From positions 1 through 23,736 of IMG/VR virus record IMGVR_UViG_3300025168_000680: a DNA stretch of 23,736 nucleotides; one strand, given 5' to 3'. A program made the translations under genes and the position numbers. Below the pieces are notes generated by a model. It was not told the DNA's origin. It saw only the letters and a program-made list of their open reading frames with translations, and did not search any database. Positions 152 to 22,487 of the stretch are shown piece after piece; the stretch's first letter is position 1, and every line of letters begins with the position of its first letter. The stretch is from a virus.

Positions 152-174
152 CAGGTTAAAATTAACCTGACAAT
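152..174 (+). promoter_or_regulatory. Palindromic site 1 (AGGTTAA-AA-TTAACCT) before the DUF3150 gene
   Basis: CAGGTTAA and TTAACCTG form an inverted repeat with 8-nt arms and an AA centre (152-169), followed by ACAAT. The 20 bases at 155-174 recur exactly at 2368-2387, and the core GTTAAAATTAAC recurs at two further places. The site lies 28 nt before the ATG at 197, just after a terminator and before the ribosome-binding site. That position and symmetry suit an operator for a dimeric repressor or a phage-specific promoter element. No convincing sigma-70 -35/-10 pair is visible around it. Confidence 0.6.
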
Positions 175-3267: not shown

Positions 3268-3421
3268 ATCGCAGGTAGATTTGCTCTTCAAGGCTAGTCA
3301 CAAAGCTAACTGCGAAGAATTCAAAAGATTGTTTTTTATTAAGGCAAGGGAACTTGTCAGAAAGAGGATTTACGATGGCTATGAAAAGAATTCACATCAA
3401 CTTACCAGACGAAGTGCATGA
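3212..3421 (+). CDS. Small basic hypothetical protein
   Basis: The frame gives 69 residues (MKQQRPYSPPLIVERTPYE...), with a Pro-rich start and a basic helical C-terminal half (KRLFFIKARELVRKRIYDGY). AAGGAG (3198-3203) lies eight bases before the ATG. It overlaps the previous gene by 56 bases and the next by 47 bases in other frames. No family is recognised. The ribosome-binding site and basic helices favour a real gene, but the heavy overlap on both sides lowers confidence. Confidence 0.5.
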   Translation: MKQQRPYSPPLIVERTPYESQVDLLFKASHKANCEEFKRLFFIKARELVRKRIYDGYEKNSHQLTRRSA

Positions 3422-3557
3422 ATCACTTAAAAAAATGTGCAACAAAGAATGTCGAAATGTTTCGGCGCAGGTTCAGTTTCTTATAAAAAACGCGGAGCTA
3501 AAGTATGACAGAGAGAACCCAGCCGCTGGCTCTGAGCTTGTTGGTTTGACCACATAA
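3375..3557 (+). CDS. Ribbon-helix-helix (Arc/CopG-like) DNA-binding protein
   Basis: The 60-residue protein has the compact RHH pattern: a short beta strand KRIHINLP, helix one DEVHESLKKMCNKE, a turn RN, and helix two VSAQVQFLIKNAE. RHH proteins dimerise and place the paired strands in the major groove of short palindromic operators, commonly as autorepressors. AGAGG at 3363-3367 supports the ATG at 3375; a second in-frame ATG follows two codons later. It is a candidate to bind the palindromic GTTAAAATTAAC sites in this window, but this is only inference. A noncoding structured stretch follows. Confidence 0.7.
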   Translation: MAMKRIHINLPDEVHESLKKMCNKECRNVSAQVQFLIKNAELKYDRENPAAGSELVGLTT

Positions 3558-7449: not shown

Positions 7450-8328
7450 ATGACGACAAAAAAGAACACTTGGCAGACGCTAAGTAAGATTGACTGCACA
7501 GAACATGCCGAGAATAAAAACGGGCTAACTTACCTATCTTGGGCATGGGCATGGGGGATTCTGAAAGAGAACTTTCCTGATGCTACTTTCGAGAAACACT
7601 ATTTTGATGGTGTTCCTTACACGGCGGACACTAGTGGTTTTGCTTTTGTAAAGGTGACGGTGACGGTTGATGGCAATGATCAGACAGAGACATTGCCTGT
7701 CTTGGACTACCGCAACAAAGCGGTAAAAAATCCAGACGCTTTCGCGGTCAATACTTCTTTGCAGAGGTGCTTGACCAAAGCTATCTCATACCACGGGCTA
7801 GGCCATTACATCTATGCTGGTGAAGATTTGCCGCCTAGTGATGGAGACGAGGCCCCCAAGGAAGTGTCTAAGGAAGAGCCTAAAGAAGCGCCTAAGAAAG
7901 TTAAGGATCAACCTAAGGCAGCAAAGCCTCAGGTTAAAATTAACCCAGCCAATGTTAAGTTAGAGGAGTTCCGCTCTCAATTCCTAGACCATCACGCAGA
8001 TATTGTTGAGATGGATGAGGATGCGAAGCTTGCCGACATAACGGAAAGTGACAGCTTTGATGTGGTTCTCAAAGTGTTTGAGACATTCATGCCTCGCATC
8101 CACGATAAGTGGGGATCAGGGCCAGAGGAAGGATACAGCGGTGAAGATATGTACGAGAACAATGATGATTGCGTAAAGGCAATCGAAGGTTTCTACCTAA
8201 AGAACAAAAAGGTGGTTTCAATGCTGTCCTCAGATGCGCCATCTTATCATAAGCAGGTAATGGGTATATTTAAGGCGGCTAAAGGAGCAGCCCAAAAGGG
8301 TGAGCAGTATGAAGGAGTAGCAGCATAA
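7450..8328 (+). CDS. Sak3/DUF1071-like single-strand annealing protein
   Basis: The 292-residue protein has the DUF1071 signature TYLSWAWAWGILKE (27-40) and the conserved NTSLQRCLTKAISYHGLGHYIYAGEDLP. This family (Sak3) belongs to phage single-strand annealing recombinases, which pair complementary strands after resection. The conserved domain covers about 1-130. A Lys/Glu/Pro-rich linker (about 130-172) then leads to a C-terminal helical region of unknown role. GAAGGTGA before the ATG is the ribosome-binding site. It lies in a run with a RecB-like nuclease and an SSB-like protein. The linker DNA contains palindromic site 3, read as QVKINPA. Ends in a TAATG overlap with the next gene. Confidence 0.85.
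   Translation: MTTKKNTWQTLSKIDCTEHAENKNGLTYLSWAWAWGILKENFPDATFEKHYFDGVPYTADTSGFAFVKVTVTVDGNDQTETLPVLDYRNKAVKNPDAFAVNTSLQRCLTKAISYHGLGHYIYAGEDLPPSDGDEAPKEVSKEEPKEAPKKVKDQPKAAKPQVKINPANVKLEEFRSQFLDHHADIVEMDEDAKLADITESDSFDVVLKVFETFMPRIHDKWGSGPEEGYSGEDMYENNDDCVKAIEGFYLKNKKVVSMLSSDAPSYHKQVMGIFKAAKGAAQKGEQYEGVAA
7931..7946 (+). promoter_or_regulatory. Palindromic site 3, inside the annealing-protein gene
   Basis: AGGTTAAAATTAACCC differs from site 1 by one base over 16. It lies inside the low-complexity linker of the annealing-protein gene, where protein constraints are weak. It may be a functional binding site inside a gene or a chance hit. The GGTTAA/TTAACC arms are perfect, which argues against chance. 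Confidence 0.4.
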
Positions 8329-9341: not shown

Positions 9342-9679
9342 TGCACGACGACAAAAAAATAATTCTTGAAGAGGCCACAGACAAAGTCTGCGGAGATCGG
9401 CATGATGATTATGGGGACGCCACACTGAACCACACGCGGATTGCAGCGTTGTGGAATGTCTGGATCACCAATCGAAGATGGGCCGGTAACCCCTTAACAG
9501 CATACGATGTTGCAATGATGATGAACTTAACTAAATTTGCACGGTGTATGAATAAACCTAAGCACGATTCTCATGTTGACATTGCGGGATATGCAGCGGT
9601 TGCGAATGATATTTACGAAACTATAGTTGGAGTAAAGGTTGATGGCGGGACGGAAGAACAGACCAAGACGGATGGATGA
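9341..9679 (+). CDS. DUF6378-like phage protein
   Basis: The 112-residue protein carries the pattern RHDDYGDATLNHTRIAALWN, then LTAYDVAMMMNLTKFARC and HVDIAGYAA, which I recognise as the DUF6378 phage family. The function is not established. The conserved Asp/His/Glu residues on helices resemble those of all-alpha NTP pyrophosphohydrolases, but this is a guess from pattern alone. AGGGGGG before the ATG is a strong ribosome-binding site, and the start overlaps the previous stop. Its last 38 bases overlap the next gene. Confidence 0.7.
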   Translation: MHDDKKIILEEATDKVCGDRHDDYGDATLNHTRIAALWNVWITNRRWAGNPLTAYDVAMMMNLTKFARCMNKPKHDSHVDIAGYAAVANDIYETIVGVKVDGGTEEQTKTDG

Positions 9680-9929
9680 GGTTTCAAGGACTTGGAACAT
9701 TGTTTTTCCTGTCAGGCTAATAGAGAAGATAAAGGCCAAGGCCGCTGAAAGGAGCATAACGGCTGCATCTTTGGTGAGGGAAGAGTTAGACGCTCCTAGC
9801 GAGACCAACAGTAGCGGCTTAAAGGAAAAGATATTTGCGATAATTCGCAAGGAATTTACTTTCCCGAAGTACGCTAACGGCAAAACCTTGGGTGATACGA
9901 TTGTTGATAAGGTGGAAAAGGGACTTTAA
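9642..9929 (+). CDS. Putative ribbon-helix-helix-type protein
   Basis: The 95-residue protein opens with a basic stretch (AGRKNRPRR), then WNIVFPVRLIEKIKAKAAERS followed by ITAASLVREEL, consistent with strand-helix-helix of an RHH domain. The C-terminal half (about 50-95) is a separate helical region. AAAGG precedes the ATG at 9642. It is the last gene of the plus-strand recombination block and may regulate transcription; no direct evidence. The terminator hairpin lies five bases after the stop. Confidence 0.6.
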   Translation: MAGRKNRPRRMDEVSRTWNIVFPVRLIEKIKAKAAERSITAASLVREELDAPSETNSSGLKEKIFAIIRKEFTFPKYANGKTLGDTIVDKVEKGL

Positions 9930-10100: not shown

Positions 10101-10319
10101 TTATACCAAATAGCACTGCTGCTCACCGTCACAGCAATCTGCTACTGGACGATTACAAGACTCACACTCCATATGCGCTCTCTTGTAAACAAGTCGCGTA
10201 GCCTGACCGCACCACGGACAATCCGATAAATTAGCGTCTTGACCTGTTTTTGCTTTTTGGACTCGCTCTAAGGTTTTTGGACGAATTGTTACGGGGATTA
10301 CCGTCCTTGTGATGTACAT
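10101..10319 (-). CDS. Zinc-ribbon protein of phage type
   Basis: The 72-residue protein carries C34-x2-C37 (CPWCGQ), C52-x2-C55 (CESCNRPV) and then DCCDGEQ, a pattern I recall from many small phage proteins; function unknown. The ATG at 10319 is preceded by GGGAG at nine bases. No other ATG, GTG or TTG occurs in frame before Cys34, so the gene overlaps the previous one by 89 bases in a different frame. It is the last gene of the late minus-strand unit. Confidence 0.72.
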   Translation of the reverse strand: MYITRTVIPVTIRPKTLERVQKAKTGQDANLSDCPWCGQATRLVYKRAHMECESCNRPVADCCDGEQQCYLV

Positions 10320-10452
10320 CTCTCTTATCTCCCTTTTTTAGCTTCCCAGAACTGACCATCTTGCGCCTCGCTTTGTTGCGAGAGTTCCGGTTTGCCTTTT
10401 GTTTCGGCTTGGAATGGTAATTCTTGTATTCTTTTTTGTAATTCCTAGCCAT
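10231..10452 (-). CDS. Small basic HNH-like protein
   Basis: The 73-residue, strongly basic protein (ARNYKKEYKNYHSKPKQKAN...) ends in DVHHKDGNPRNNSSKNLR, the core of an HNH-type motif (His47/His48, Asp50, Asn55, Asn60). It lacks the zinc-binding CxxC pairs of larger HNH enzymes. I recall very similar proteins in many phages, often annotated as HNH endonuclease; activity is unproven. GGAG six bases before the ATG at 10452 supports that start over the in-frame ATG at 10464. It overlaps the 3' end of the oxygenase gene by eight bases and shares its last 89 bases with the zinc-ribbon gene. Confidence 0.72.
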   Translation of the reverse strand: MARNYKKEYKNYHSKPKQKANRNSRNKARRKMVSSGKLKKGDKRDVHHKDGNPRNNSSKNLRASPKSKNRSRR

Positions 10453-11149
10453 TGGCGTCTCCATAAAATATCTTTTGCCATTCCTTGTGGCGCTTTAAAG
10501 GTATGTTAACGTAAGAAAACAATCTCGCCATCCTAATCACGCACCAGTTTAGCATGTTTATCGGAAACGGCAGAGGTTTTACGACATCAATAAATAAAAC
10601 AGACCTGATCTCATCAGTGTCGTTCACGGCAGTGTGCTCATATGTATCGTCAAACAATACACATTTGCCTTCCTTCCAGTGCAACTTCCTGCCATTGACC
10701 GTCAAATAACACTTCTTCTCATTCGGTATATCTAGAGCCAGATGAAGTCTCAGAACGCCCGAGTACGGGCCAGCATGTGGATTTAAAACTTTGCGAGGCC
10801 CCAACACTGAAACATACGCACTAATAATGCTTGGGTGGTCAGATATAATCTTAACAGTCTCAGGCATCTGTTCACAGTTCTTGGGGAACCATATGTTGGC
10901 CCCCTTCAAGAAAAATAAACGCCACTTATCATCATTGGATATTTCCATTTGATGAGGCGATATCTCCTGAAATGGAGCAAAGTCATCGTATCTCTTGATT
11001 AGCTCTTTATACTCAGCCTGTATCACCGAGAAACTATTCTCTAAATCAGACGATCCTGAGAACAGGCAGGCAGGATATATCTCTTGCGTACCCCACTTGT
11101 TATATTTTCTATAAAGGGGCTGTAAAATTTTTTCTACAAAAAGAGCCAC
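10445..11149 (-). CDS. Aspartyl/asparaginyl beta-hydroxylase-like 2-oxoglutarate/Fe(II) oxygenase
   Basis: The 234-residue protein aligns by eye with the AspH catalytic domain: NPHAGP (His125), RLHLALDIP (His136, expected iron ligand), WKEGKCVLFDDTYEHTAVN (His172, second iron ligand) and R182 (expected 2-oxoglutarate contact) before FIDV. AspH-type enzymes use two His ligands, iron, oxygen and 2-oxoglutarate to hydroxylate Asp or Asn side chains, so a virion or host protein could be the target. The C-terminus (200-234) looks amphipathic. It starts with GTG at 11149, one base from palindromic site 4. No strong ribosome-binding site is visible; translation may be coupled to the gene before it. 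Why it lies among lysis genes is not clear. Confidence 0.82.
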   Translation of the reverse strand: MALFVEKILQPLYRKYNKWGTQEIYPACLFSGSSDLENSFSVIQAEYKELIKRYDDFAPFQEISPHQMEISNDDKWRLFFLKGANIWFPKNCEQMPETVKIISDHPSIISAYVSVLGPRKVLNPHAGPYSGVLRLHLALDIPNEKKCYLTVNGRKLHWKEGKCVLFDDTYEHTAVNDTDEIRSVLFIDVVKPLPFPINMLNWCVIRMARLFSYVNIPLKRHKEWQKIFYGDANG

Positions 11150-11165
11150 GGGTTAAAATTAACCT
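11150..11165 (-). promoter_or_regulatory. Palindromic site 4, before the oxygenase gene
   Basis: GGGTTAAAATTAACCT (plus-strand reading) fills the 14-nt gap between the TM/coiled-coil gene and the oxygenase gene on the minus strand. It matches site 1 at 15 of 16 bases and has perfect GGTTAA/TTAACC arms. It could be an operator or promoter element for the three distal genes (oxygenase, HNH-like, zinc ribbon). It also holds the only candidate ribosome-binding bases for the oxygenase GTG. Confidence 0.5.
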
Positions 11166-11505
11166 ATAAATCTGATTTTGGATGCTTTCCATTGTGCATC
11201 TTCTTCAATGAATCAACATCTTTTTGCAAGCCAAGAATAGAAATATCTAATCTTTCAAGAGACCTGTGTAGCCTCTCCCTTGCCTCTGGGCTCATCATTC
11301 CGCTAATAACGTCCATTCTCTGGCCTACCAAGTCAGTAGCATTGTCATTTCGATCAAGACGAGCGTCTAGTTTAGCTAATTTATGAGTGGCATCTTTAAG
11401 GTTCTTATCTATCTCAGAGACCTTTTGACGGACAACAATAAAACTAGTAACCACACTCGCCGCCATGCCAGCTATGGTTATTATCATACGAGCATCGAGT
11501 TCCAA
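11164..11505 (-). CDS. TM-anchored coiled-coil protein, possible i-spanin
   Basis: The 113-residue product has an N-terminal hydrophobic segment (about 7-25: MIITIAGMAASVVTSFIVV) followed by a long heptad-rich helix (about 28-105) full of Lys, Asp and Leu. One N-terminal TM plus a periplasmic coiled coil is the layout of inner-membrane spanins. The TTG at 11505 is one base after the previous stop and has AAGGGA eight bases upstream; an in-frame ATG seven codons on is the alternative. It lies next to a Pro-rich lipoprotein gene, which supports a spanin pair, although the order is the reverse of Rz/Rz1. Alternatively it is an uncharacterised membrane protein. Confidence 0.6.
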   Translation of the reverse strand: MELDARMIITIAGMAASVVTSFIVVRQKVSEIDKNLKDATHKLAKLDARLDRNDNATDLVGQRMDVISGMMSPEARERLHRSLERLDISILGLQKDVDSLKKMHNGKHPKSDL

Positions 11506-11506
11506 T

Positions 11507-11935
11507 TTAGATTCCCTTGGAGCCTATGCCAATAGCGATAACGCAAGATAATCTGGGCGTTCCAATAATGGTGACATAACTATTAATTTGGCCCTCTTTT
11601 AGAAAGGTCGTAAGAAAATGATTGTCCGGCATACTAATTATTTGACCATATAGATTATATTTTTCGTTGCTTAAAGCTGCGTAAAAATTAGGGGGAAAGT
11701 AACAAGGCGCGTCTACCTTCAATAGACCAACGGGCGGCAGTTGATCTGAATAAAAGGCTGGACCCGGTGGCGAAAAATGTTCCACATTCAGGGGTAGCGG
11801 CATTGGGGTGGGCAGCGGAACGGCTGGCCCTCGATTTATATAGGGTTTATCAGAGGAAGAAAAAGGATAATTAGCGCAACCCGATAGAAGAAAAACAGAA
11901 AACAGGAGCGCTAGTCGTATTATCTTACTTGCCAC
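11507..11935 (-). CDS. Lipoprotein, possible o-spanin partner
   Basis: From the GTG at 11935 the 142-residue protein starts with a 19-residue signal (ASKIIRLALLFSVFLL) and a perfect lipobox LSGC (Cys20). A Pro-rich region follows (PAVPLPTPMPLPL) and then a strand-rich C-terminal half. GGAG eight bases before the GTG and the usual signal length favour this start; an in-frame ATG at 11956 has no good ribosome-binding site. Lipidation would place it in the outer membrane. Outer-membrane spanins are Pro-rich lipoproteins, but usually shorter, so the call is tentative. Overlaps the holin gene by 11 bases. Confidence 0.65.
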   Translation of the reverse strand: MASKIIRLALLFSVFLLSGCANYPFSSSDKPYINRGPAVPLPTPMPLPLNVEHFSPPGPAFYSDQLPPVGLLKVDAPCYFPPNFYAALSNEKYNLYGQIISMPDNHFLTTFLKEGQINSYVTIIGTPRLSCVIAIGIGSKGI

Positions 11936-12404
11936 CTGACTTGCTCCGAAATGCACGGGCTTTACTCATAGCCCTATTCCCAAACCAAAAGGCCATTATG
12001 GCGCTAAATATAGCCGCCGTGTCATCGTCCCATGCAGCCTGTATTGCTGCCGTCCACTCCACGTTTTGGCTTGCTATGAGTGCGTATATCAGCGTTCCTT
12101 TGACCGCCGCGAACATGGCAAAGAACAAATAAGTAATGACAGGGCGCACAGAACCCCTAAGACCGTTGACAAAAGAACCAGATTCGAGAGACTGATCATG
12201 TTTATAAATATTCTCCGCTTCAGATATATCTGCCTGTGCATCTAACTCTTCTATCTTCAAGCTAGACAGCTTCTCAGCATACTTGGCCTTCGCCTCAAGC
12301 ATAAGAAGCTCCTGCTCATTGGCTTGCTTTTGCTTAAAATACCCAAGAACCTCAGGTATAATTGATGTAGTGAAGCCCAGTAATGTTCCGAGTAATGATA
12401 TCAT
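11925..12404 (-). CDS. 3-TM holin (GTA_holin_3TM type)
   Basis: The 159-residue protein has a hydrophobic N-terminal segment (1-23), a charged central helix (24-75), the conserved RGSVRP (83-88) and then hydrophobic segments at about 89-111 and 128-142 ending FWFGNR. This fits the GTA_holin_3TM family (PF11351) described in gene transfer agents and related phages. Holins form the membrane lesions that let the endolysin reach the cell wall. It follows the endolysin and two small membrane proteins in the same unit, a normal lysis cassette. It overlaps the upstream gene by four bases (ATGA), so translation is probably coupled. Confidence 0.8.
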   Translation of the reverse strand: MISLLGTLLGFTTSIIPEVLGYFKQKQANEQELLMLEAKAKYAEKLSSLKIEELDAQADISEAENIYKHDQSLESGSFVNGLRGSVRPVITYLFFAMFAAVKGTLIYALIASQNVEWTAAIQAAWDDDTAAIFSAIMAFWFGNRAMSKARAFRSKSGGK

Positions 12405-12697
12405 TTTTTCTTAGCCATCCACGCCGACATGCCCATGTAAGCACCAACAACACCAGCCATACCTATATAAAAAAGCCCAAACAAATCAGATAAAGCCTTG
12501 ATACGGGTGTCCGGGAAGAGTGGCAGGAACAATGCGGCAGTGAAAATAATCATGGTAATCATTGCAACCCATGCCATATGCTTCTGGGCGTCTGCCTTCT
12601 CCTCTGCGATCTCTGCTTGCGAAGCGGCTATTTCGCCCTCTGTGACAACCCCGTCATCATTTATATCAATGGACTGCCTACCGTATGTAGGTGACAT
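12401..12697 (-). CDS. Small membrane protein with EF-hand-like loop
   Basis: The 98-residue protein starts with a canonical 12-residue calcium loop DINDDGVVTEGE (11-22, with D1, N3, D5, T9, E12), then a helix rich in Ala and Glu, and two hydrophobic segments (about 42-62 and 70-93). A calcium-binding N-terminus in front of a membrane hairpin suggests calcium-dependent control of a membrane step, perhaps lysis, because the holin and endolysin genes flank it. I recall such short 'D-x-[DN]-x-DG' membrane proteins in marine phages; no function is known. The start overlaps the preceding TGA by one base. Confidence 0.7.
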   Translation of the reverse strand: MSPTYGRQSIDINDDGVVTEGEIAASQAEIAEEKADAQKHMAWVAMITMIIFTAALFLPLFPDTRIKALSDLFGLFYIGMAGVVGAYMGMSAWMAKKK

Positions 12698-12870
12698 CAG
12701 TATTCTCTATAAAAGATAGATATAATCCCCGAACAACCGCCAACAATCAGCAACAACGGCCAATCAAGTAAGGCCCCCAAGGAAATTAGAATAACTCCAA
12801 TGCCAGACCAAGTCGTAATCTCTCTGGCTCGATTATCTATCCAGTGACAAAGCTTTTGAAAATACTTCAT
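12697..12870 (-). CDS. Small two-TM membrane protein, lysis-cassette member
   Basis: This 57-residue gene has AGGAG followed by GATAAAC before its ATG at 12870, a strong signal. The N-terminus is polar (MKYFQKLCHWIDNRAREITT), followed by two short hydrophobic stretches (about 22-35 and 37-52) that could form a membrane hairpin. The stop overlaps the next start (TGATG). Its place between endolysin and holin suggests an accessory holin or antiholin role, but there is no family evidence. Confidence 0.65.
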   Translation of the reverse strand: MKYFQKLCHWIDNRAREITTWSGIGVILISLGALLDWPLLLIVGGCSGIISIFYREY

Positions 12871-12879
12871 GTTTATCTC

Positions 12880-13275
12880 CTAATAAGACCAAATATTGGG
12901 GCGTGGGCTGTCCTCTTTTACATCTATATGAAGAAACCTAGCGTTACCCTTCTGGTTAACACCTATACCCTTCACCCGATCATCTGCACAGATTAACCTT
13001 AACAGATCATACGCATCTTTTCCAGATACGCCGACATCACACGCCATACCTGTTGAATGTACGCCCCGTGAACTTTTTCTCTCCTCGATAGGATGAAGTG
13101 GGCATCTATAGCCAGACGTTATTCGCATAGACTGTCCGTACTCATCTCTGATAGATTGCATAACATCCATTAACTGCTCACTGATAACTAAGTCATTAGC
13201 GCCACATTGTGCAGTGACGCAATGCTGACAACGAAACTCATCAGGGGAGAAGTTAGGGTATTTTGACCAATCCAC
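12880..13275 (-). CDS. Endolysin, peptidase M15 family (zinc DD-peptidase)
   Basis: The 131-residue protein shows the M15_3 pattern: RITSGYRCPLHP (51-62), GVHSTGMACDVGV with His73 and Asp80 as zinc ligands, and RFLHIDV with His116 as third ligand. Such enzymes cut peptide bonds in peptidoglycan stems, so this is the cell-wall hydrolase of the phage. No signal peptide is seen, so a holin is needed, and one is encoded just downstream. The GTG start overlaps the stop of the giant gene (TAGTG), with GGAG ten bases upstream. Two Cys pairs in the N-terminal part (CQHC) may bind a second metal. Confidence 0.88.
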   Translation of the reverse strand: MDWSKYPNFSPDEFRCQHCVTAQCGANDLVISEQLMDVMQSIRDEYGQSMRITSGYRCPLHPIEERKSSRGVHSTGMACDVGVSGKDAYDLLRLICADDRVKGIGVNQKGNARFLHIDVKEDSPRPNIWSY

Positions 13276-16200
13276 TAGTCTGTTCTCCTCATATATTCTG
13301 ATTTACGTTCTCCGTAATAAGAAACTATCTCATTCATCATTTCTTGGATTTTAATGAACATTTCTTTCTTGTTACTGGCTGACATGCTCGGATCGACATC
13401 AATTTCTCTTTTTAATTTACGCAACTCAGACAGTTCCTTCGATATTATCTTTACATCACCAGCGACATCCAAAAGACCTTCGTTCCTTTTCGCTCGTTCA
13501 TACCAATCATCTGCGCGGCCTTGCTTGTCTAAACTAGCAAGCGTCTTTGTAAATATATCCACTTCATTGGCAAGTTGATAAAAGGCTTCGACAGGCCCGG
13601 TTCCTGCTCTCTCTTGTAAGAACCTACCAAGAACAGGATATTGATCTGGCCTTTTATCGGCAGGCGCAGGAAGGTCTAGATAGTTACGCATGATGCCGTC
13701 AGATGCGAGTAGAGCATACGATCCAACAGTGCCTAGATACCCCCTAACTAGGTGATCAATTTTTCTAGGCTGATAATCTATGTTCATGTCAGCAAGATGT
13801 TGAGACGCAGCTAATGCCAAAGGCGAGGCGGTTGTTGGATCAGCCGCAAAACCTTCTGTCCTGCCCTGAAAATATGGCACGATAGGTTTGCCGGTATAAG
13901 TATCATAATTACCTATTGATTCAATCAAAGGCATCATGGCTTGAGGGAACTGAACGGCAAACGTACCCGTTAAATGACGCACTATAGACCTCAAGTTATC
14001 TGGTTGGTCCGTTTTATCCGCTAAACTTCTTATTATCCGCTCAGGTATAACTTTTCCGACGACACCAAGCTCGAAAGGTATCGGGGCTTTAAATGCAGGA
14101 ACAAAGTCTGAGTCAATCCCAAGCCAGCGAGGACTAATGATCCAGTTCATATCTTTGTCTGTTTCGTTTGCGTTATAATACCACGGGTTCTCTTCTTCAT
14201 CTTCTGACATAAGCCAGAACGAATACATTGCATTCACAGCAACGAAAGTGAGGAACCTATACATAAACCTCTTTTTTCGCTCCTGTTGTGTCATGGTGGT
14301 CTCAGTGCCAACCTTGCCTCGATAGCCTCTATACATAACATCTAAGCCCTGAATTCTAGCGTTCAGGAACGGTATCATGGCAGTAAATGCGTTAAAGACT
14401 GGATTGGAGCCGCGACGACTGAAGTTAATCACCTCTAAAGCCTCAAACATGGCGGCAGTTGGGTTCTGTGTGGTTTTCAAAACCCTGTTATACACGCCAA
14501 TTCTAGCGGCTGTATCGGATGTCGCTGTCAGCTTGTCAAGAGTGTCCCACCATTTAGCTGGATTAAGAGGGCTTCTGCGCTGTTGTTTAAAAATCTTCTC
14601 TGCGCGTTTATCTCTTTTATTATCATAACCGCCAACAAAACCAACAGCCTCTAACGCCTCAGCTTCTGCACTCCCCATAATGGCCTTAGCCAAGCCTACA
14701 GCAGTGGCGGGACCGGGAACCGTTGTAATTCCAGAACTCATCCATGATGACATAGAATCCCTCAGCAAGTTAGCGAGCATAAATCCGGGTTCTTTTGTTA
14801 TAAGCGTCCTAAGCACTTTTGCTGGCGTGGTCAATATGTCGAGAAAGCCCATTGAGAACTCTCCGCTCGACTTCATTGCATTGAGGAGATAGTCATCTTC
14901 CACGCTGTAATAAACAGTCTCACCGTTGATCCTTATGCCCACAGCATTGACACTAGGACTGACAGGACGGGATTTACCCAAACGCTTGGCCATGCCCAAC
15001 TTATGTAAATCTCTAACCGCTCTGGAAGCGGCCACGTTTGCGAGCGAGGCGTGAACAGCCGCATCTAAGTTACGAAGTATGTTATCAAGAGGGCTTTCGA
15101 TCCTTTGACTTGTTTTTACAACCCGCACATTCGAGACTTTATTCATCTTGCGAAGAATATCGGCTCGCGCTTTTGCGCTATCGTAAGTCGTATAAGCCTT
15201 CTCAGTAGAGACATCATTGACCATGACCATATAGGCAGGTTTCCCGCCCTTTAACTCTTTCGGGGCCGGTATGCCATACATATTTTCAAATAACCTGTTA
15301 TTAGGATCATTCGATATTTGATCCAAATCTCCAGATTTATCTAAATCTGGATTAACAACATCATACAACGATCCGGCATCATCATACGCTTGACGGTAAA
15401 ACGGTAGATAATCAGCGTTTTGCATCCATAACTTAGCAGCTTCAGCGCTAATAACGCCCGTGTCACGCATCATGTTTACCAAAGCCTTATTCCATAATTG
15501 ATATTCTCGATACGCTCTCTCCACCGCTGGATTGTTAATTCCAGCCTGTATCGCTGTCTCTATCTCGGCATCTGTGAATGTTCTTTCGCGGCCTTCTCTT
15601 TTTAAGCGCTGTGCGCGGCGACCAGCGCCGTATAGCTGGAAGGTGCCTAGCATTTGATTTTGATCAAGCTCTGCAAATATTTCTGCCAACCCTTTAAGGT
15701 CGCTAGGCTTTTCGTATTGCAAAGTAATGGTTTCCCCGGTTGCTGGGTCAACATATCCTTCAATGCGCGTCTCTCTCTGCAATCTCTCGAAAGCTTCCTC
15801 GTACTGTCGTTTAGCAGCAGGGTCAGAGCTATCGTTGATCAGCTTCTCGTTCAAGGCAGTGATGAGACCACCGCTCCTGATTAAAGGGCCTTTTGTAATG
15901 GCAGCGGCTGACACCCCCTTTGATCTCTCAAGTTGAGAAAATGCTGTCCAAGCATGAGATTCGACAGACATCTTCTGTATCTCATCAGATTTTTCAGCCA
16001 TATATCTTTGACCAGCGTACCTATCTTGGAAATTTGTTCTCCACCACAACCAATTTGGACGATCTCGCGGATCGTTCATCTTCATGCTGCCCATGATCTT
16101 ATCAAAGAAAGTCTCATTCTTCTCTTCGTTAAACTTTTCTTTGACAAGACGCTTCTGATCTTGCGTCAGACCGTTGTCTTGACGCCTCAAGCTAAACTTG

Positions 16201-19200
16201 CTTTTCAGGCTCAGTATTTCTCGCTCTACTTTTCTTGCTTCTGGCGGGTTGATGGCGTCATTCATCCCCTCATCTACAGCCTTCTGCACTTCTAGCGTTC
16301 TGTCGGGATTAACAGATACGGCAGGTTGCGGTATTGGGGTGTTTTTAACTTTATCTGACGGGCCAATGAATGATGTCACCAGTTGGGCGGTCTGGCGGCC
16401 AGCAAATTTTGGATTTTCTCTTACGAAGCTGGGGCTAAGAACATCATAGTATACAGGCTCGAATACAAAGACGGCAGGATAGCCAAAGTCTTCACTCTTC
16501 CACTCAAGCCTGTATCGACTATTGCCTGTGGGGCCGCTTTGCTTCTTCACATCAAAGCCGCCAGCCTTAGGATTATTGCGGAAAGGCCAGTACGCTTTGA
16601 GGGCTGCTCTAGCTAAGTCCTCTACGTTAGCGTGAACCCCGTATGTGTGGACGGGAACTTTCGCTTGATGTTTCTCGTAATGCGCTGCGCCAAAGCCGAC
16701 TGATCTTTCTGCTTTTGCCGGGTCTTCTACTACTCTATCAAAACCGTTTGGAACAAAAACATCGGCAGACTGCCCCTTGCCATCTGGGTCAGTGATGACA
16801 AGACGCGGGTAATAGCCTGCGTCATCTTCTGGAGACAACGGGCGTCCAACGAAAGCTGAAGTTGGAGCGCCAATTGCCTTCAGGTATCTATTTAGATTAC
16901 CCCGCTGGGTCTCTATGTTTCTTGCGAGGGAGAACTTCTGTCTATCTTGAGACCTGATTTCTCTAAAGCGTTGAGCAGCCTCGTCCGAACTTCTTCTCGC
17001 GTCATCTCTGGCGTTATCGCTGTAAGTTCCAGATTGTTTGAGTTGCTCGATTCCGTCTGGCGTTCTGATTTCATTGAATGTCCTCAAGTCAAATATTGCG
17101 ATCTGATCTGCACTATTGGCAATATAGAGCGCAGTGTCAACTTCATTGTAAATGTTGACTGCGTCAAGATAATAAAGATTATCGTCCTTATTAAGCCAAC
17201 CGCCAGCGTAGACCTTATTGCCTGTTGCTTGTGATACGTCAAACAGCATGTCGGCATATTCGTTAACGGTATTTTCATTAAGCTCGGACGCCTTAATTGT
17301 CATCTCCGCGTCTTTAATAGGAGCAACAGCATAACCCTCAGGGGCAGGCTGACCATCTACGGTGACAGTAAACCCTTCAGGGTTAGATTTGATGAATTTT
17401 AAGAGCGTTTCGTTTGGCCTTGCGAGGGAGAACTTCGTTTGCGCTCCATCAGCTTCACTAGGTTGTCTGCCATCTTCTCTACCTCTTCCCGCGACATCGA
17501 CGGCGTCTCCTCTGCCCCCTCTCCCCACGGTCTGTAAAACATTTCCTTTGGCATCTAATTCAACTCCTTCATTTATGATTTTTTTAAATGCTTGAGCATA
17601 ATCAATGTTCAAGTTTTCTTTTGTGCGAACACCCAGCTTCTTGTAGAGGTTCTTCTCTGGATACCAAAGAATAGCCTGAAGATCGGCGTTTGTTACATCA
17701 TACCCGCTGGCAACCAACTTTTTACGGGTTTTATCTATTATGCGGCGAACAGCGTTGCGGAAGTTGCCCCCAGAAGGCGCATCCTGAGGCTTGTTTTGTT
17801 GCGTCACAATAGCCTCAGCAGCTTTAGCCCACTCTGGCTTATTATACTCTTCCCGCTCATAAAGAGCGCGTATTTCAGGCGTCCGAAACAAACGATCATG
17901 CTCCCGACGCAATTCATCAGCTATCTCAACGAGAGCATCAACATCTAAAGTAGACTTAGCGTCAAACACAGATGATATTAAGAAATTATCCCCACGCTTC
18001 TCAGGATCGGCTTGGAGACCTTTTATAAGGCGATCAGCTTGTGGGCCTATCAAATCCGGCTTACCAATCAATCGACCAGTTAGACGGCCAATGGTTCGCA
18101 TCAACCACATATCGATAGTTACTGGCTCAAAGTTCCCGTTTAAGTTTTGATAAAAACCCTGCCCAATCTTTGGCCCTAAAAGGAAAGACCCATAAACAAC
18201 AGTGTCTACGTTTTCTCCGCTGGGTGGCTTATAGCCTGCGTCTCCCAGTTCCTTAACCGTGAACTGTTTATCGAATAGCTCCTTAACACCTTGCGGCCCC
18301 ATTTTGTCAAGAAGACCATTGAGCATGATAAAGTTGCCACGCATCGAAGGCCCGTGTTTGCCCTTTGAATATTCAGGGAAACGACCATTCTCTCGGTAAT
18401 AGTCATACACCTCTGTAGTGTAGACAGAGTTCTCCATAACAGGCGTGTTTTGACTGGTTACAGAAAGAGCCGCCAAGAACGCAAACCGTGCATCGGGATC
18501 GGTCTTAATTTCAGGATACAACTCAGCCGCAATATCAACAGCCTCACTAACCGTCTCACTGTACCAGTTAGCTGCGTTGCCAGTCTTTCTCAGGGCGGCA
18601 AGCGCTTCACCAGCAAGAACATCAGATATCAAGCCATCATAACTTGTATCGTTCTCGATAAGGACGCCCTCTTTACCAATTTTATTGCCAAGAACTCTTT
18701 TAGCCCTAGAGTTGAGAAGACGAGACACATAGCCCACATTATTTCCCGTGCGCTTCGCGAAATCATCGTTGTACAGAATGTCAAGAATGGACAAGCGGCG
18801 GGGCCTGCTACGGGGGCCAACACGCTTCCCAGCGACCTCAGTGTCATCGTGCTCAGAATTCTTGGCAGAAAAAACTGGGTCTCTTGGGTCTACAGGTTTA
18901 CGGGCTAATGAATACTTGCCCTCTATAGTGGCTTTTTGCCTATCTAGAGCGCTCTCCTCATCTCTGGACAAACGCCTTTCTATAAAGCGAGAGAGCGTCT
19001 CACGCGGAACGTCAGAGGCCCTGACGCGCCTTCTAATATTGCCGTCCTGAACTGTATCAGCGCCTATTATACGGCGAGCAACGCCATCCAATTGAACAGG
19101 ATATAGAGAGTATTTAACGCTCTCAGGGTCAATTGTTGTGGGGTCTTCACCCTGCTGCCGCATTCTTTTTATTTGAAAATACAGGTCATCGTTTGTAATC

Positions 19201-22200
19201 CCGACATCCCGCGCATCACGGGCGGGACCAACACGATTAATCTCGGCTACTTGTTCTGATGTCAGTTTATCTGCGTCATATGCTTGGGGGAGATAACCGG
19301 GATTATAAGAAGCAAACTCATCATCTGACATTGTGAGAAGCCGAGGGTTCCTCTGAACGACTTCATTAGCTGTAAGAGCGTCTGCTGGAGCGTCTGGGGC
19401 TTGATCACCAACAGCGTCGGGTGGAGCATCTGGAGCCTGTAATCCGACTTCTACGTCCCTTTGTCTAGCGCCTAGAGGAGAACGCAGACCATCAAACATT
19501 TGCTCGGCAGATATTATGTCTGCATTTGTAAAGCCGTTTGATAAAGATTTAAAGAAATCAACAATACGGTTGAACAAGCTTCTGGGCTTGCCTGTCAACT
19601 TCACATTGCCATCTGCCCAATACCTAAACGCATCAGCAATAGATTCTTCGATTAGGAGTTCTTCTGTTGGAGGTGTTTTCTTGCCATTTCCAGCATATGT
19701 CCCGTCTTCTCTTAGCTCTGTATATCTTGCTACTATGTCTTGGTAAAAAGTTAACTTATCGCCCTTGCGCTTATTATTCTTTGCATATTTTTCTAGAACG
19801 GCAAAGTCGGCATCCGTAAAAACACTGAGCGATTTAAGGGCGTGTATAACTTCATGATTAAGAACACCCTTCAGGTTATTTTTAACCGCAGTCGTTGTTT
19901 TCGCGCCTATATTGGCTAAGTCTAAGGCAAGAGATATTAAAACCTTACCGTTTACAGGGTCGGTAGCGGCACCCTCGCGCCCCTCAGTCAAAGTATCAAC
20001 AAGCTTAACCCGTATATCCTCCCCAATCTTCATTCCCTTGGGCAGCGCTCTCTGGAACCTCTTTAACTCCTCACCTATGGACTGATTAATATCATCCATT
20101 CTGAGTTGAGCATCTGTCTTGACAGTTGAGTTTTCTATGCGATTTTTAAAATCGCGACTTGCTTCGGGTATTGACCTTGTATCACCGGGCGCTCTGTCAC
20201 GCGGAATTTGTATGCCGGGACCAAGAGTGAAGTCAGCAAGGGTTTCTCTCCTTCTTGCCTCTTCTGCTTCTTGCCTTACAGCGTCACCCTCTATTTGCTC
20301 ACCACGCCTAAGTGGACTATCTAGGTCACGGGCCTCTGCATCATATACAGAGCGGCTCATCCACCTATTCTTCCTAGTGGGATGCTCTATAAGATCACCA
20401 CGATCTACAGCAGAATTGATAATAGACTCGGTCGGAGCGCCACGCTTTAAGTCCAAGGATTTATTAATGTCAGACTTTAGGATGCCGTTCTGGCCTTTAC
20501 GTTTTGCCAGAGAAACAACGGCAGCATATTGAGTGCCAGAAAACTCTGGCTTCTTAATCACGGGCAGACGCTGAGGCCCATCACCCGGAAGCGCTGGCAT
20601 CTGTTCAACCGCTTCATACAGGTAACCTAGCTGACCCGGCGATACGCTTGGGCTATCGATGCGAGCGCTGCCTATCAAACGCTGTGCAAAGCGCTCAAAG
20701 CCAACATCCTCGACCATAATATTCTTTTGTTCAGCAAGGGATAAGACATCATCAGGCGTTACCTCAAGAGAGGATGACGGGGCTACCTGAGATATAATCT
20801 CTTCAGAGACGCCAGCTTCCGCTAAATCACCCGGCGTTAAGAGATCGTCCGGGCTAAACGTGCGTTGACCAGTTTGTACGCGCCTTGCGTTTAATTGGGT
20901 AACCGTGTCACCGGGCAAGTCCGATACAGGTATACTGTCCGTAACCTGTGTCTTGCGAGCAGCGTCTAATAAAGCCCCCGTTGAAACATTGGCCGAATCA
21001 GGGCCGTAACCCGCACCCTTGATTGCTTCGGCTGCTAAACGGTTGGTCTCTGCCCTGTCTTGTGTCTCAAGAAGATCGTTGACCCCTAAATTAATACCGT
21101 CTCTAAATTCAGCAGCCTGTTGACTGGTTGCGAAATAAGGCGAAACTTTGACGCCCTGCTTGGACTGAACGAAAGAACCCTTGTTGGTGGTGCTAACTTC
21201 ATAAGCATCAGGTGTGCCAAGCTCATCAGCCGCCACAATTGCGCCACGATTGAACGACAAAGGAAGATCACCCGCGAAATCAGATAGCGTCTGCTCAACA
21301 AGAGACGAAACATCTTCACCCTCATTGATAAGTGTATCGCTGGCTTCACTCAAATCCTCCAAAAGAAGCGTGGGCTTAGGAGGTGCCGGCGCTGGTAGCG
21401 CTAATGGCAAAGCATCTGCCTGACCAACAGGGCCAGCCTCTCTAATTTTCTCTTGCTCTTGAGCCTTCTCAAGCTCTTGTCTCACTTCTTCTTGTTGTTG
21501 AATCGCCCTGCGATTGCGTAAGCCCGGAACTATAAGCTCTAAGCCACCTTGGAATATAGCGCCTGCGCTGGCACCATACCCAAAATCAGCCATAGCTGAT
21601 TCACCAACCTCTAAATTAGGATTGTACAATCCTTTTTCTGTTAAATCCTGAAGATAGCCAGCAAACGCTTCCTGCGCTCCCTCACCAATACCTACTGAAG
21701 CTACCCTTCGCGGCCCTGTTTTAAACAAAATATTAGCGGCATCACCCAAGATTTTGTTTCTGGTCTCTGAAGGTACTGATTTGGGTATTCCCTTAGATAA
21801 TATCTTCCCCACCATCGTAACAGGGGCGAGTTCACTCAGACCAATTCCGCCACCCAGCAGTATAGCTTGTTTTAAATTTTCCTCAGCAGCGGGATACTTG
21901 CCGCCTTCCTTCTCATACAAATTAAGAATACGCTCTGCCTGATCTCCAGCGCCAGCGCCAACGGCTAATCCTGTTGTGCCACCAGTCCCAACCACCTTTC
22001 CTGCTACATTTAATCCTCTAGTCGCCAGTTGACCCGCCGCAGCGGTGGCCCTACCGGCTAAACCCGCCTGACCAAGGCCGGGAATAAAAAAGCTGGCAAA
22101 CGAACCAAGGGCATTGCCCACGCCGTAGCTTGTAGAGGTTGTATCTCCCCCAAAAGTCTCTCTCAAACTTTTTTGAGATTCTCTACCCCACTTAACAAAA

Positions 22201-22487
22201 TCATTCTCTGCCAAGTCGTCAGACAAACCCAGCGAGTATGCGAGAGCGCCAGCGCCCTCAACCGCAAGAGGCACCATAGAGGTGAAGCCGGTAAGAAAAC
22301 CGCTCACGGGGTTCATTACCGCATCGCCTACTTCTTCAAAGAATCCCGGCTCTTCATATCCGATTCGCTGATTAAAATCGGATCGATCCATATCTGAATA
22401 ATGTTTTTTGTACAACGCATTGGATAGCTGTTCGTCCGACAGATCGTCGTACATGGGGTATTTTTCGCGGAAAGATTTTAAATCCAT
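13275..22487 (-). CDS. Giant 3070-aa polyvalent virion-type protein (zincin, wHTH, HhH-like and LPD38-like modules)
   Basis: Visible modules in order: an N-terminal motif (5-44) with YPMYDDLSDEQLS; a Gly/Ala-rich, partly hydrophobic region (60-225); a winged-helix-like segment (about 650-710); a gluzincin-type site with HEVIH (878-882) and EESIADAF (947-954); a possible HhH-GPD-like segment with GPKIGQ (1438-1443) and Asp1459 in VTIDMWLMR; a segment with ADLQAILWYPEKNLY (about 1600); a domain with GFTVTVDGQPAPEGY (about 1690-1830); and an LPD38-like region (about 2520-2760). K[FY]SL motifs at 1125, 1191, 1685, 1851 and 2097 separate modules. Polyvalent proteins of phages are thought to enter the host with DNA and act early. 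I see no RNA polymerase motifs. The start has only a distant GAGG. The order before the endolysin gene suggests late expression and packaging in the virion. Confidence 0.85.
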   Translation of the reverse strand: MDLKSFREKYPMYDDLSDEQLSNALYKKHYSDMDRSDFNQRIGYEEPGFFEEVGDAVMNPVSGFLTGFTSMVPLAVEGAGALAYSLGLSDDLAENDFVKWGRESQKSLRETFGGDTTSTSYGVGNALGSFASFFIPGLGQAGLAGRATAAAGQLATRGLNVAGKVVGTGGTTGLAVGAGAGDQAERILNLYEKEGGKYPAAEENLKQAILLGGGIGLSELAPVTMVGKILSKGIPKSVPSETRNKILGDAANILFKTGPRRVASVGIGEGAQEAFAGYLQDLTEKGLYNPNLEVGESAMADFGYGASAGAIFQGGLELIVPGLRNRRAIQQQEEVRQELEKAQEQEKIREAGPVGQADALPLALPAPAPPKPTLLLEDLSEASDTLINEGEDVSSLVEQTLSDFAGDLPLSFNRGAIVAADELGTPDAYEVSTTNKGSFVQSKQGVKVSPYFATSQQAAEFRDGINLGVNDLLETQDRAETNRLAAEAIKGAGYGPDSANVSTGALLDAARKTQVTDSIPVSDLPGDTVTQLNARRVQTGQRTFSPDDLLTPGDLAEAGVSEEIISQVAPSSSLEVTPDDVLSLAEQKNIMVEDVGFERFAQRLIGSARIDSPSVSPGQLGYLYEAVEQMPALPGDGPQRLPVIKKPEFSGTQYAAVVSLAKRKGQNGILKSDINKSLDLKRGAPTESIINSAVDRGDLIEHPTRKNRWMSRSVYDAEARDLDSPLRRGEQIEGDAVRQEAEEARRRETLADFTLGPGIQIPRDRAPGDTRSIPEASRDFKNRIENSTVKTDAQLRMDDINQSIGEELKRFQRALPKGMKIGEDIRVKLVDTLTEGREGAATDPVNGKVLISLALDLANIGAKTTTAVKNNLKGVLNHEVIHALKSLSVFTDADFAVLEKYAKNNKRKGDKLTFYQDIVARYTELREDGTYAGNGKKTPPTEELLIEESIADAFRYWADGNVKLTGKPRSLFNRIVDFFKSLSNGFTNADIISAEQMFDGLRSPLGARQRDVEVGLQAPDAPPDAVGDQAPDAPADALTANEVVQRNPRLLTMSDDEFASYNPGYLPQAYDADKLTSEQVAEINRVGPARDARDVGITNDDLYFQIKRMRQQGEDPTTIDPESVKYSLYPVQLDGVARRIIGADTVQDGNIRRRVRASDVPRETLSRFIERRLSRDEESALDRQKATIEGKYSLARKPVDPRDPVFSAKNSEHDDTEVAGKRVGPRSRPRRLSILDILYNDDFAKRTGNNVGYVSRLLNSRAKRVLGNKIGKEGVLIENDTSYDGLISDVLAGEALAALRKTGNAANWYSETVSEAVDIAAELYPEIKTDPDARFAFLAALSVTSQNTPVMENSVYTTEVYDYYRENGRFPEYSKGKHGPSMRGNFIMLNGLLDKMGPQGVKELFDKQFTVKELGDAGYKPPSGENVDTVVYGSFLLGPKIGQGFYQNLNGNFEPVTIDMWLMRTIGRLTGRLIGKPDLIGPQADRLIKGLQADPEKRGDNFLISSVFDAKSTLDVDALVEIADELRREHDRLFRTPEIRALYEREEYNKPEWAKAAEAIVTQQNKPQDAPSGGNFRNAVRRIIDKTRKKLVASGYDVTNADLQAILWYPEKNLYKKLGVRTKENLNIDYAQAFKKIINEGVELDAKGNVLQTVGRGGRGDAVDVAGRGREDGRQPSEADGAQTKFSLARPNETLLKFIKSNPEGFTVTVDGQPAPEGYAVAPIKDAEMTIKASELNENTVNEYADMLFDVSQATGNKVYAGGWLNKDDNLYYLDAVNIYNEVDTALYIANSADQIAIFDLRTFNEIRTPDGIEQLKQSGTYSDNARDDARRSSDEAAQRFREIRSQDRQKFSLARNIETQRGNLNRYLKAIGAPTSAFVGRPLSPEDDAGYYPRLVITDPDGKGQSADVFVPNGFDRVVEDPAKAERSVGFGAAHYEKHQAKVPVHTYGVHANVEDLARAALKAYWPFRNNPKAGGFDVKKQSGPTGNSRYRLEWKSEDFGYPAVFVFEPVYYDVLSPSFVRENPKFAGRQTAQLVTSFIGPSDKVKNTPIPQPAVSVNPDRTLEVQKAVDEGMNDAINPPEARKVEREILSLKSKFSLRRQDNGLTQDQKRLVKEKFNEEKNETFFDKIMGSMKMNDPRDRPNWLWWRTNFQDRYAGQRYMAEKSDEIQKMSVESHAWTAFSQLERSKGVSAAAITKGPLIRSGGLITALNEKLINDSSDPAAKRQYEEAFERLQRETRIEGYVDPATGETITLQYEKPSDLKGLAEIFAELDQNQMLGTFQLYGAGRRAQRLKREGRERTFTDAEIETAIQAGINNPAVERAYREYQLWNKALVNMMRDTGVISAEAAKLWMQNADYLPFYRQAYDDAGSLYDVVNPDLDKSGDLDQISNDPNNRLFENMYGIPAPKELKGGKPAYMVMVNDVSTEKAYTTYDSAKARADILRKMNKVSNVRVVKTSQRIESPLDNILRNLDAAVHASLANVAASRAVRDLHKLGMAKRLGKSRPVSPSVNAVGIRINGETVYYSVEDDYLLNAMKSSGEFSMGFLDILTTPAKVLRTLITKEPGFMLANLLRDSMSSWMSSGITTVPGPATAVGLAKAIMGSAEAEALEAVGFVGGYDNKRDKRAEKIFKQQRRSPLNPAKWWDTLDKLTATSDTAARIGVYNRVLKTTQNPTAAMFEALEVINFSRRGSNPVFNAFTAMIPFLNARIQGLDVMYRGYRGKVGTETTMTQQERKKRFMYRFLTFVAVNAMYSFWLMSEDEEENPWYYNANETDKDMNWIISPRWLGIDSDFVPAFKAPIPFELGVVGKVIPERIIRSLADKTDQPDNLRSIVRHLTGTFAVQFPQAMMPLIESIGNYDTYTGKPIVPYFQGRTEGFAADPTTASPLALAASQHLADMNIDYQPRKIDHLVRGYLGTVGSYALLASDGIMRNYLDLPAPADKRPDQYPVLGRFLQERAGTGPVEAFYQLANEVDIFTKTLASLDKQGRADDWYERAKRNEGLLDVAGDVKIISKELSELRKLKREIDVDPSMSASNKKEMFIKIQEMMNEIVSYYGERKSEYMRRTD
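16921..17436 (-). repeat. 18-bp direct repeat encoding the KFSLAR junction motif
   Basis: CTTGCGAGGGAGAACTTC (plus-strand reading) occurs exactly at 16921-16938 and 17419-17436. On the minus strand both encode (K)FSLAR in the giant protein (residues 1685 and 1851). The identical codon choice, where synonyms would also do, suggests a recent duplication or recombination of a module at this junction. Confidence 0.75.

Follow-up and report, generated by a model that had tools for sequence, protein, structure and literature searches.

A phage-encoded PF05118 oxygenase related to bacterial lipid hydroxylases, located beside lysis-type genes and possibly acting on host membrane lipids

Human AspH is described as acting in the lumen of the endoplasmic reticulum (ER) on EGF-like domains, with the substrate aspartate gripped through Arg688, Lys666, and Gln627 (PMC6817910). 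OlsC, of the same superfamily, is described as 2-hydroxylating ornithine lipid at C2 of the secondary acyl chain (PMC11001654), and deletion, complementation, and expression work is reported to have identified a Brucella “lpxO” as OlsC (PMC5767591). That case is a precedent for misnaming within this family. The figure legend of a marine survey names both ornithine lipid and hydroxylated ornithine lipid (PMC4796936), and a review names a different enzyme, OlsE, for hydroxylation in marine roseobacters (PMC11631085); that other enzyme may be the source of the hydroxylated ornithine lipids known from the sea. PF05118 genes have been published under the AspH name for Limnohabitans phage DC33 (PMC12195039), for cyanophages P-HM1 and P-HM2 (PMC3037559), and among the core genes of pelagimyophages (PMC7029224). 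A literature search for phage-encoded lipid hydroxylases turned up no report, and the combination of phage, ornithine lipid, and hydroxylase gave nothing relevant among the matches listed.

The DNA analyzed here (the window) is the 23,736-nt stretch of IMG/VR record IMGVR_UViG_3300025168_000680. Its oxygenase open reading frame (ORF) lies at positions 10445 to 11149 on the minus strand, with a GTG start at 11149 and a stop at 10447 to 10445, and encodes 234 amino acids (aa) assigned by Pfam and alignments to the PF05118 2-oxoglutarate (2OG)/Fe(II) oxygenases, the OlsC/LpxO/AspH superfamily. The PF05118 (Asp_Arg_Hydrox) match (E = 8.9e-43, 146.3 bits, profile positions 2 to 157 of 157) passed the curated cutoff of 22.6 bits, and an AspH-type fold was predicted, in agreement with the AspH-like hydroxylase core proposed in a preliminary description of this DNA; the motifs quoted there (H125-A-G-P128, R134-L-H136-L-A-L139, F166-DDTYEHTAVN176, and R182) are all present. 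The GTG start and full frame were kept in all three nonidentical close relatives (L003, L004, and L005; 88 to 96% identical), a count from which two identical copies of the window oxygenase (L001 and L002) were left out. A chance ORF was ruled out by the PF05118 match together with this retention. No second domain was found within the 234 residues, and among PHROGs only two families corresponded to the oxygenase, both of unknown function.

The window oxygenase is a real, intact, and widespread phage enzyme. When 2.9 million viral contigs were scanned with alignment A1, 274 of 368 candidates were confirmed as relatives, and the best 80 of the 274 that were kept represent 61 distinct proteins, 49 to 100% identical to the window oxygenase. 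Among 50,697 cultured phage records, 14 matched it at an E value of ≤0.01, none over more than 80% of the query; with the protein of locus L062 as the query, 8 records matched, 4 of them over at least 80% of its length and at 31 to 34% identity. Two of the L062-matched records, on inspection, evidently consist of bacterial DNA and carry genes resembling lpxO. Two contigs in the phage collection (CAKLQH020000005.1 and AFYI01000007.1) are apparently bacterial and carry lpxO-like genes, with fadB as a neighbor in one and phn and fdh genes in the other. More remote carriers of the same domain include Pseudomonas phage Itty13 (only 63 bits with the phage profile) and cyanophages P-HM1 and P-HM2 (44 and 37 bits), and PF05118 fold matches to giant viruses and remote phages were found in BFVD, the top seven at 20 to 28% identity to the phage enzyme. 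The primase of the window was 30 to 33% identical to its best cultured phage matches among those listed.

Patterns used for the scan of genome contigs were strict and returned one relative (L088, PBMQ01000020.1), so that plasmid and phage records are the sole source of the bacterial rows compared below. An archaeal home of the family was considered and rejected, because this lone match, in a “Euryarchaeota” metagenome-assembled genome (MAG), is phage DNA: its oxygenase gene is flanked by a terminase large subunit gene and a portal-like gene (by eye), and an HNH-like gene is also present. Its placement in the MAG is likely a binning artifact. Across 194 genomes of a Euryarchaeota sample, PF05118 exceeded the cutoff only in this MAG, and three others gave matches below the cutoff.

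Residue roles were taken from the structure paper on human AspH (PMC6817910) and transferred by sequence alignment. The iron ligands correspond to His125 (AspH His679) and His172 (His725), the contacts at the C-1 carboxylate end of 2OG to His136 (His690) and Arg134 (Arg688), and those at the C-5 end to Arg182 (Arg735) and Ser114 (Ser668). The third iron-site position in the window oxygenase is Gly127, and iron is ligated by the two histidines alone. All six residues were invariant in the 61 distinct viral relatives, which rules out a decayed enzyme. The preliminary description had singled out His136 and His172 and had regarded loss of either in relatives as evidence against its reading; every catalytic residue is kept in the relatives, so that this argument fails (both histidines, 61 of 61). 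Both residues are real and His172 is an iron ligand, but His136 is a 2OG contact and the second iron ligand is His125. Judged from these residues and the predicted fold, the chemistry is almost certainly that of an Fe(II)/2OG hydroxylase.

An AlphaFold2 model based on 29 family sequences (pLDDT, 91.2; pTM, 0.89) included C-terminal helices at residues 197 to 208 and 212 to 228. The best matches among solved structures were to AspH, both by structure (Foldseek E = 1.9e-14; Z = 22.5, root mean square deviation of 2.6 over 191 residues) and by sequence to human AspH (E = 1.3e-11 with the single sequence and 7.7e-25 with a 16-row profile). Because no OlsC or LpxO structure was among the rows shown, the first rank of AspH does not choose between substrates. 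Human AspH (PDB 5apa and 5jqy) has the same fold, two-histidine iron site, and 2OG residues as the phage oxygenase, but in the alignment it ends at about residue 209 of the phage enzyme, which places the phage helix at 212 to 228 beyond the AspH end. Hydropathy analysis of the oxygenase gave no transmembrane (TM)-like stretch. The N-terminal helix was amphipathic (moment, 0.61) and the C-terminal helix less so (0.47), values that stand by themselves with no control set. From these modeled helices, the oxygenase is probably cytoplasmic and peripheral on the membrane surface.

The best NCBIfam model for the oxygenase was OlsC (NF052565; E = 2.2e-58, 197.5 bits, residues 12 to 233 of 234), followed by LpxO (NF033391; 108.2 bits), in a search that returned no AspH model to compete with these two. 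The LpxO score is under that model's 500-bit cutoff, and the OlsC score is so far under the 450-bit equivalog cutoff, which two bacterial OlsC rows passed at 534 and 536 bits, that the oxygenase is not OlsC itself. The OlsC model matched all 29 members of phage alignment A3 (187 to 221 bits in the eight phage rows shown), and it gave 120 to 124 bits for two LpxO rows, 95 to 164 bits for eight other bacterial PF05118 rows, and 22 and 31 bits for two cyanophage rows. The phage rows therefore lie above the general PF05118 background and far below the equivalog cutoff. Two Pseudomonas rows reached 231 and 289 bits, and a Mycobacterium homologue encoded beside a peptide-synthetase gene reached 217 bits, above the window oxygenase. 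In the reverse comparison, the profile built from 29 phage proteins gave 240 bits for the Pseudomonas JS425 homologue, 229 to 230 bits for three OlsC proteins, 113 to 121 bits for four LpxO proteins, 69 to 100 bits for peptide-synthetase-linked enzymes other than that of Mycobacterium, and 75 bits for human AspH, a score lowered because that row is a partial stretch of 162 residues. The JS425 gene adjoins a CDP-alcohol phosphatidyltransferase gene and lies two genes from a phosphocholine cytidylyltransferase gene.

OlsC aligned with the window oxygenase over nearly its full length at 37 to 38% identity (42 to 43% with L062), and LpxO, which has the same domain, aligned at 25 to 30%. OlsC and the phage enzymes have in common the HxGP iron motif, Ser114, an FQxIS segment (also found in the Pseudomonas JS425 and Mycobacterium rows), and an H-x-x-W-x-x-x-F tail, which was present in 61 of 61 phage proteins, 3 of 3 OlsC proteins, and 0 of 4 LpxO proteins. 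The tail reads HKEWQKIF in the window oxygenase and HKEWEKRF in OlsC; human AspH ends before it. The iron site is HxG in OlsC, AspH, and the phage enzymes (HAG in the window), whereas all four LpxO rows have HRD, with Ala or Thr in place of Ser114. The phage enzyme also differs from OlsC in starting about 20 model positions later and in having DDTY where OlsC has DDAY. The phage enzymes have Leu (or Met) at position 78 and Tyr at position 112, OlsC has Thr and Met there, and AspH has Gln and Lys, so that the substrate side of the phage enzymes does not match that of OlsC either. Of the AspH substrate residues, Arg688 is kept (as Arg134), but Lys666 and Gln627 are replaced by Tyr112 (invariant in 61 of 61 distinct viral relatives) and Leu78 (Leu or Met in 16 of 16 rows), respectively, and the AspH TPR domain is absent. 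By alignment and its own-cutoff tests, the oxygenase is a PF05118 member that is neither an OlsC equivalog nor an LpxO equivalog and that is without the AspH substrate-binding pair.

Trees were built with 16 phage rows (15 that were <80% mutually identical, plus L088) selected from the 61 distinct proteins and L088. Tree 1 had 36 rows and tree 2 had 32, with four long rows (L008, L101, L104, and L110) removed; L009 and L012 (P-HM1 and P-HM2) were left out of both, and L099 (no ORF of 150 aa), L105, and L010 were unused. In these small trees, which include only a stretch of human AspH and draw their bacterial rows solely from plasmid and phage records, the phage rows formed one clade (100/99 in tree 1) and grouped with OlsC and LpxO at 83/90 in tree 1 (with L101 also inside) and 83/93 in tree 2, both unstarred. 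A larger group in tree 1 (93/88) excluded human AspH and the peptide-synthetase-linked rows except that of Mycobacterium. The trees fix no order among phage, OlsC, and LpxO, with phage plus LpxO at only 56/18 in tree 2 and phage plus OlsC not rejected (P = 0.42). By these sequence comparisons, the nearest characterized relatives of the phage oxygenase are the lipid acyl 2-hydroxylases of the OlsC/LpxO branch. A lipid substrate is given about an even prospect, ahead of a protein or a small molecule.

It is unlikely that the oxygenase is a protein Asp/Asn beta-hydroxylase like AspH, acting on a virion protein or a host protein. Such a role would agree with the PF05118 domain, with the lead of AspH among matches to solved structures (Z = 22.5), with iron and 2OG residues identical to those of AspH, and with the surroundings of the oxygenase in 33 of 63 loci, where the neighbors are packaging or virion-type genes and a substrate in the virion would come naturally; the trees also did not reject a clade that joins the phage rows to AspH and three peptide-synthetase-linked rows (P = 0.072). 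A clade of phage and human AspH alone, however, was rejected (P = 2.7e-6 and 7.3e-6), the Lys666/Gln627 pair is replaced, the 234 residues hold no other domain, and the ER lumen and EGF-like domains are the described setting of human AspH. The EGF-type hydroxylation consensus had no match when all six frames of the 23.7-kb window were searched. The preliminary description had suggested virion proteins as substrates, with the giant protein as an example, and the lipid-hydroxylase relatives, the replaced residue pair, and the lack of this consensus and of cysteine in the giant protein all argue against that suggestion. As an AspH-type EGF substrate, the giant protein was ruled out by the last two observations.

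A hydroxylase of a small molecule, a free amino acid, or a lipopeptide precursor, of the peptide-synthetase-cluster or L-proline cis-4-hydroxylase type, is quite unlikely. Six fetched bacterial PF05118 genes had a peptide-synthetase or adenylation-domain gene no more than two genes away, one of the six being the Mycobacterium gene whose product is close to the phage clade, and L-proline cis-4-hydroxylase was a weak match (E = 0.015). The other five nevertheless scored far below OlsC and the Pseudomonas homologue with the phage profile, and no biosynthesis gene was recognized in the neighbor families scanned, most of which are without annotation.

Within the window, the oxygenase gene lies near the end of a minus-strand run. 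The run includes a 3070-aa giant ORF without cysteine (13275 to 22487), the last base of which is the first base of an ORF for an endolysin-like M15 peptidase (12880 to 13275; phrog_894, lysis). These are followed by genes for a 57-aa small membrane protein (12697 to 12870; by hydropathy and eye), a 98-aa protein with two TM-like stretches (12401 to 12697; phrog_27150, unknown function) and a 159-aa protein with one (11925 to 12404; phrog_6637, unknown function), both possible holins by eye, a 149-aa lipoprotein-like protein with an LLSGC lipobox (11507 to 11956; outer-spanin-like by eye), and a 113-aa one-TM coiled-coil protein (11164 to 11505; inner-spanin-like by eye). The placement of the oxygenase next to lysis genes in the preliminary description thus holds for lysis-type genes as recognized by the M15 endolysin match, hydropathy, and eye. 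On its other side is an HNH_3 gene (10231 to 10464) on the same strand, whose first 20 nt coincide with the 3' end of the oxygenase gene; the two are possibly cotranslated. A 72-aa ORF on the minus strand (10101 to 10319) overlaps the HNH gene; its cysteine pairs (CPWC, CESC, and CC) appear zinc-ribbon-like by eye.

The oxygenase locus was compared across 63 loci, comprising those of the 61 distinct viral proteins, that of L088, and that of the window, a repeat of L001. Lysis-type neighbors were found in 23, terminase/portal-like or linked genes in 16, virion-type genes in 8, other terminase genes in 9, and another setting in 6 (with a DNA-polymerase-like gene nearby in some); 1 was unplaceable. 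The portal, DNA-polymerase, and lysozyme labels and some others, including several of the lysis type, were assigned by eye. The oxygenase thus recurs in phages of several backgrounds, for the most part near genes presumed to be late, and no single substrate gene accompanies it throughout. Directly after the oxygenase, 13 of the 16 terminase/portal-group loci encode a conserved protein of about 230 aa (L084, 2411 to 3109, and 12 more), one member of which matches phrog_3704, labeled “ferredoxin”; a functional partnership with the oxygenase is possible.

The reading preferred here as a whole, with a roughly even chance of being correct, is that the oxygenase is made with the lysis genes and acts on a host membrane lipid, one acyl chain of which it hydroxylates at C2. 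The protein would be an active cytoplasmic Fe(II)/2OG oxygenase near the OlsC/LpxO branch of PF05118, holding iron on His125 and His172 and 2OG on Arg182/Ser114 and Arg134/His136. Presumably made late, together with the lysis genes, it would be held by its amphipathic end helices on the inner face of the host cytoplasmic membrane and would hydroxylate carbon 2 of an acyl chain of an ornithine or other amino-acid lipid, or of a lipid A precursor, converting 2OG and O2 to succinate and CO2. The hydroxylated lipid may tighten or otherwise alter the envelope, so that it holds until the holin triggers or blocks competing phages. No match to PF13444, the OlsB-type acyltransferase family, was found in the 16 related and possibly fragmentary viral records scanned; the host would therefore have to supply the lipid, and the window enzyme differs from OlsC in being phage encoded with no ornithine lipid synthesis gene found in those records. 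Against the link to lysis, 39 of the 63 loci are without lysis-type genes beside the oxygenase. It is possible, at somewhat less than an even chance, that a membrane-lipid acyl 2-hydroxylase of their own, masked by the name “aspartyl/asparaginyl beta-hydroxylase,” is present in many uncultivated phages, which during infection would use it to remodel host aminolipids, phospholipids, or lipid A. If so, phages would alter host-membrane chemistry, envelope strength, lysis timing, or superinfection would be tuned by virus-driven hydroxylation of existing host lipids, and mass spectrometry of virion proteins for +16 Da would be the wrong place to look. For a family with 274 viral-contig relatives, membrane lipids would be a different and easily tested substrate from that implied by the AspH name.

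Lysogenic conversion, in which the oxygenase would be lipid-modifying cargo of temperate phages and, in place of a lytic-cycle function, the modified envelope of a lysogen would exclude other phages, is improbable. In 16 of the 63 loci (L013, L017 to L019, L021, L022, L024, and L028 to L036), the oxygenase is followed at a distance of at most two genes by a tyrosine integrase-family gene on the opposite strand, a call for which one of the 16 loci was scanned with PHROGs, and these phages may therefore include temperate members. The vicinity of an integrase is a usual place for conversion genes. No integrase, however, is beside the oxygenase in the window or its nearest relatives, other phage groups have the oxygenase among packaging genes, and in the window the oxygenase shares its strand with the lysis-type genes.

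The palindromic site described previously between the oxygenase and the lysis genes is real: GGTTAAAATTAACC, operator-like, occupies positions 11151 to 11164, one base from the oxygenase GTG, and is touched by the stop codon of the 113-aa coiled-coil gene. Separate control of the oxygenase, also suggested earlier, is possible given a conserved palindrome at the start codon, but a promoter and terminator scan of the region was not above chance, with 6 promoter-like sites found versus 7.2 expected. Copies of GGTTAAAATTAACC with 0 or 1 mismatch occur at five places in the window (154 to 167, 2367 to 2380, 7932 to 7945, 11151 to 11164, and 19874 to 19887), that at 7932 inside an ORF at 7450 to 8328, and at ≤3 mismatches there were 10 matches versus 1.9 expected, each site being counted on both strands. 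Of 80 viral loci, 12 have the one-base gap between palindrome and start codon, and each of these is of the window or L013 type (with the gap in L017 counted from an ATG start); in the L013-type loci, an inner-arm base is changed (GGTTAAAAATAACC), leaving five paired bases per side. Copies of GGTTAAAATTAACC recur in related phages, for example in L013 at 7980, 11889, and 15990. From its distribution, GGTTAAAATTAACC looks like a phage-wide operator, and a DNA-binding regulator covering the oxygenase start region is plausible. Two small plus-strand proteins (3354 to 3557 and 9639 to 9929) appear ribbon-helix-helix-like by eye and are candidate binders of the palindrome.
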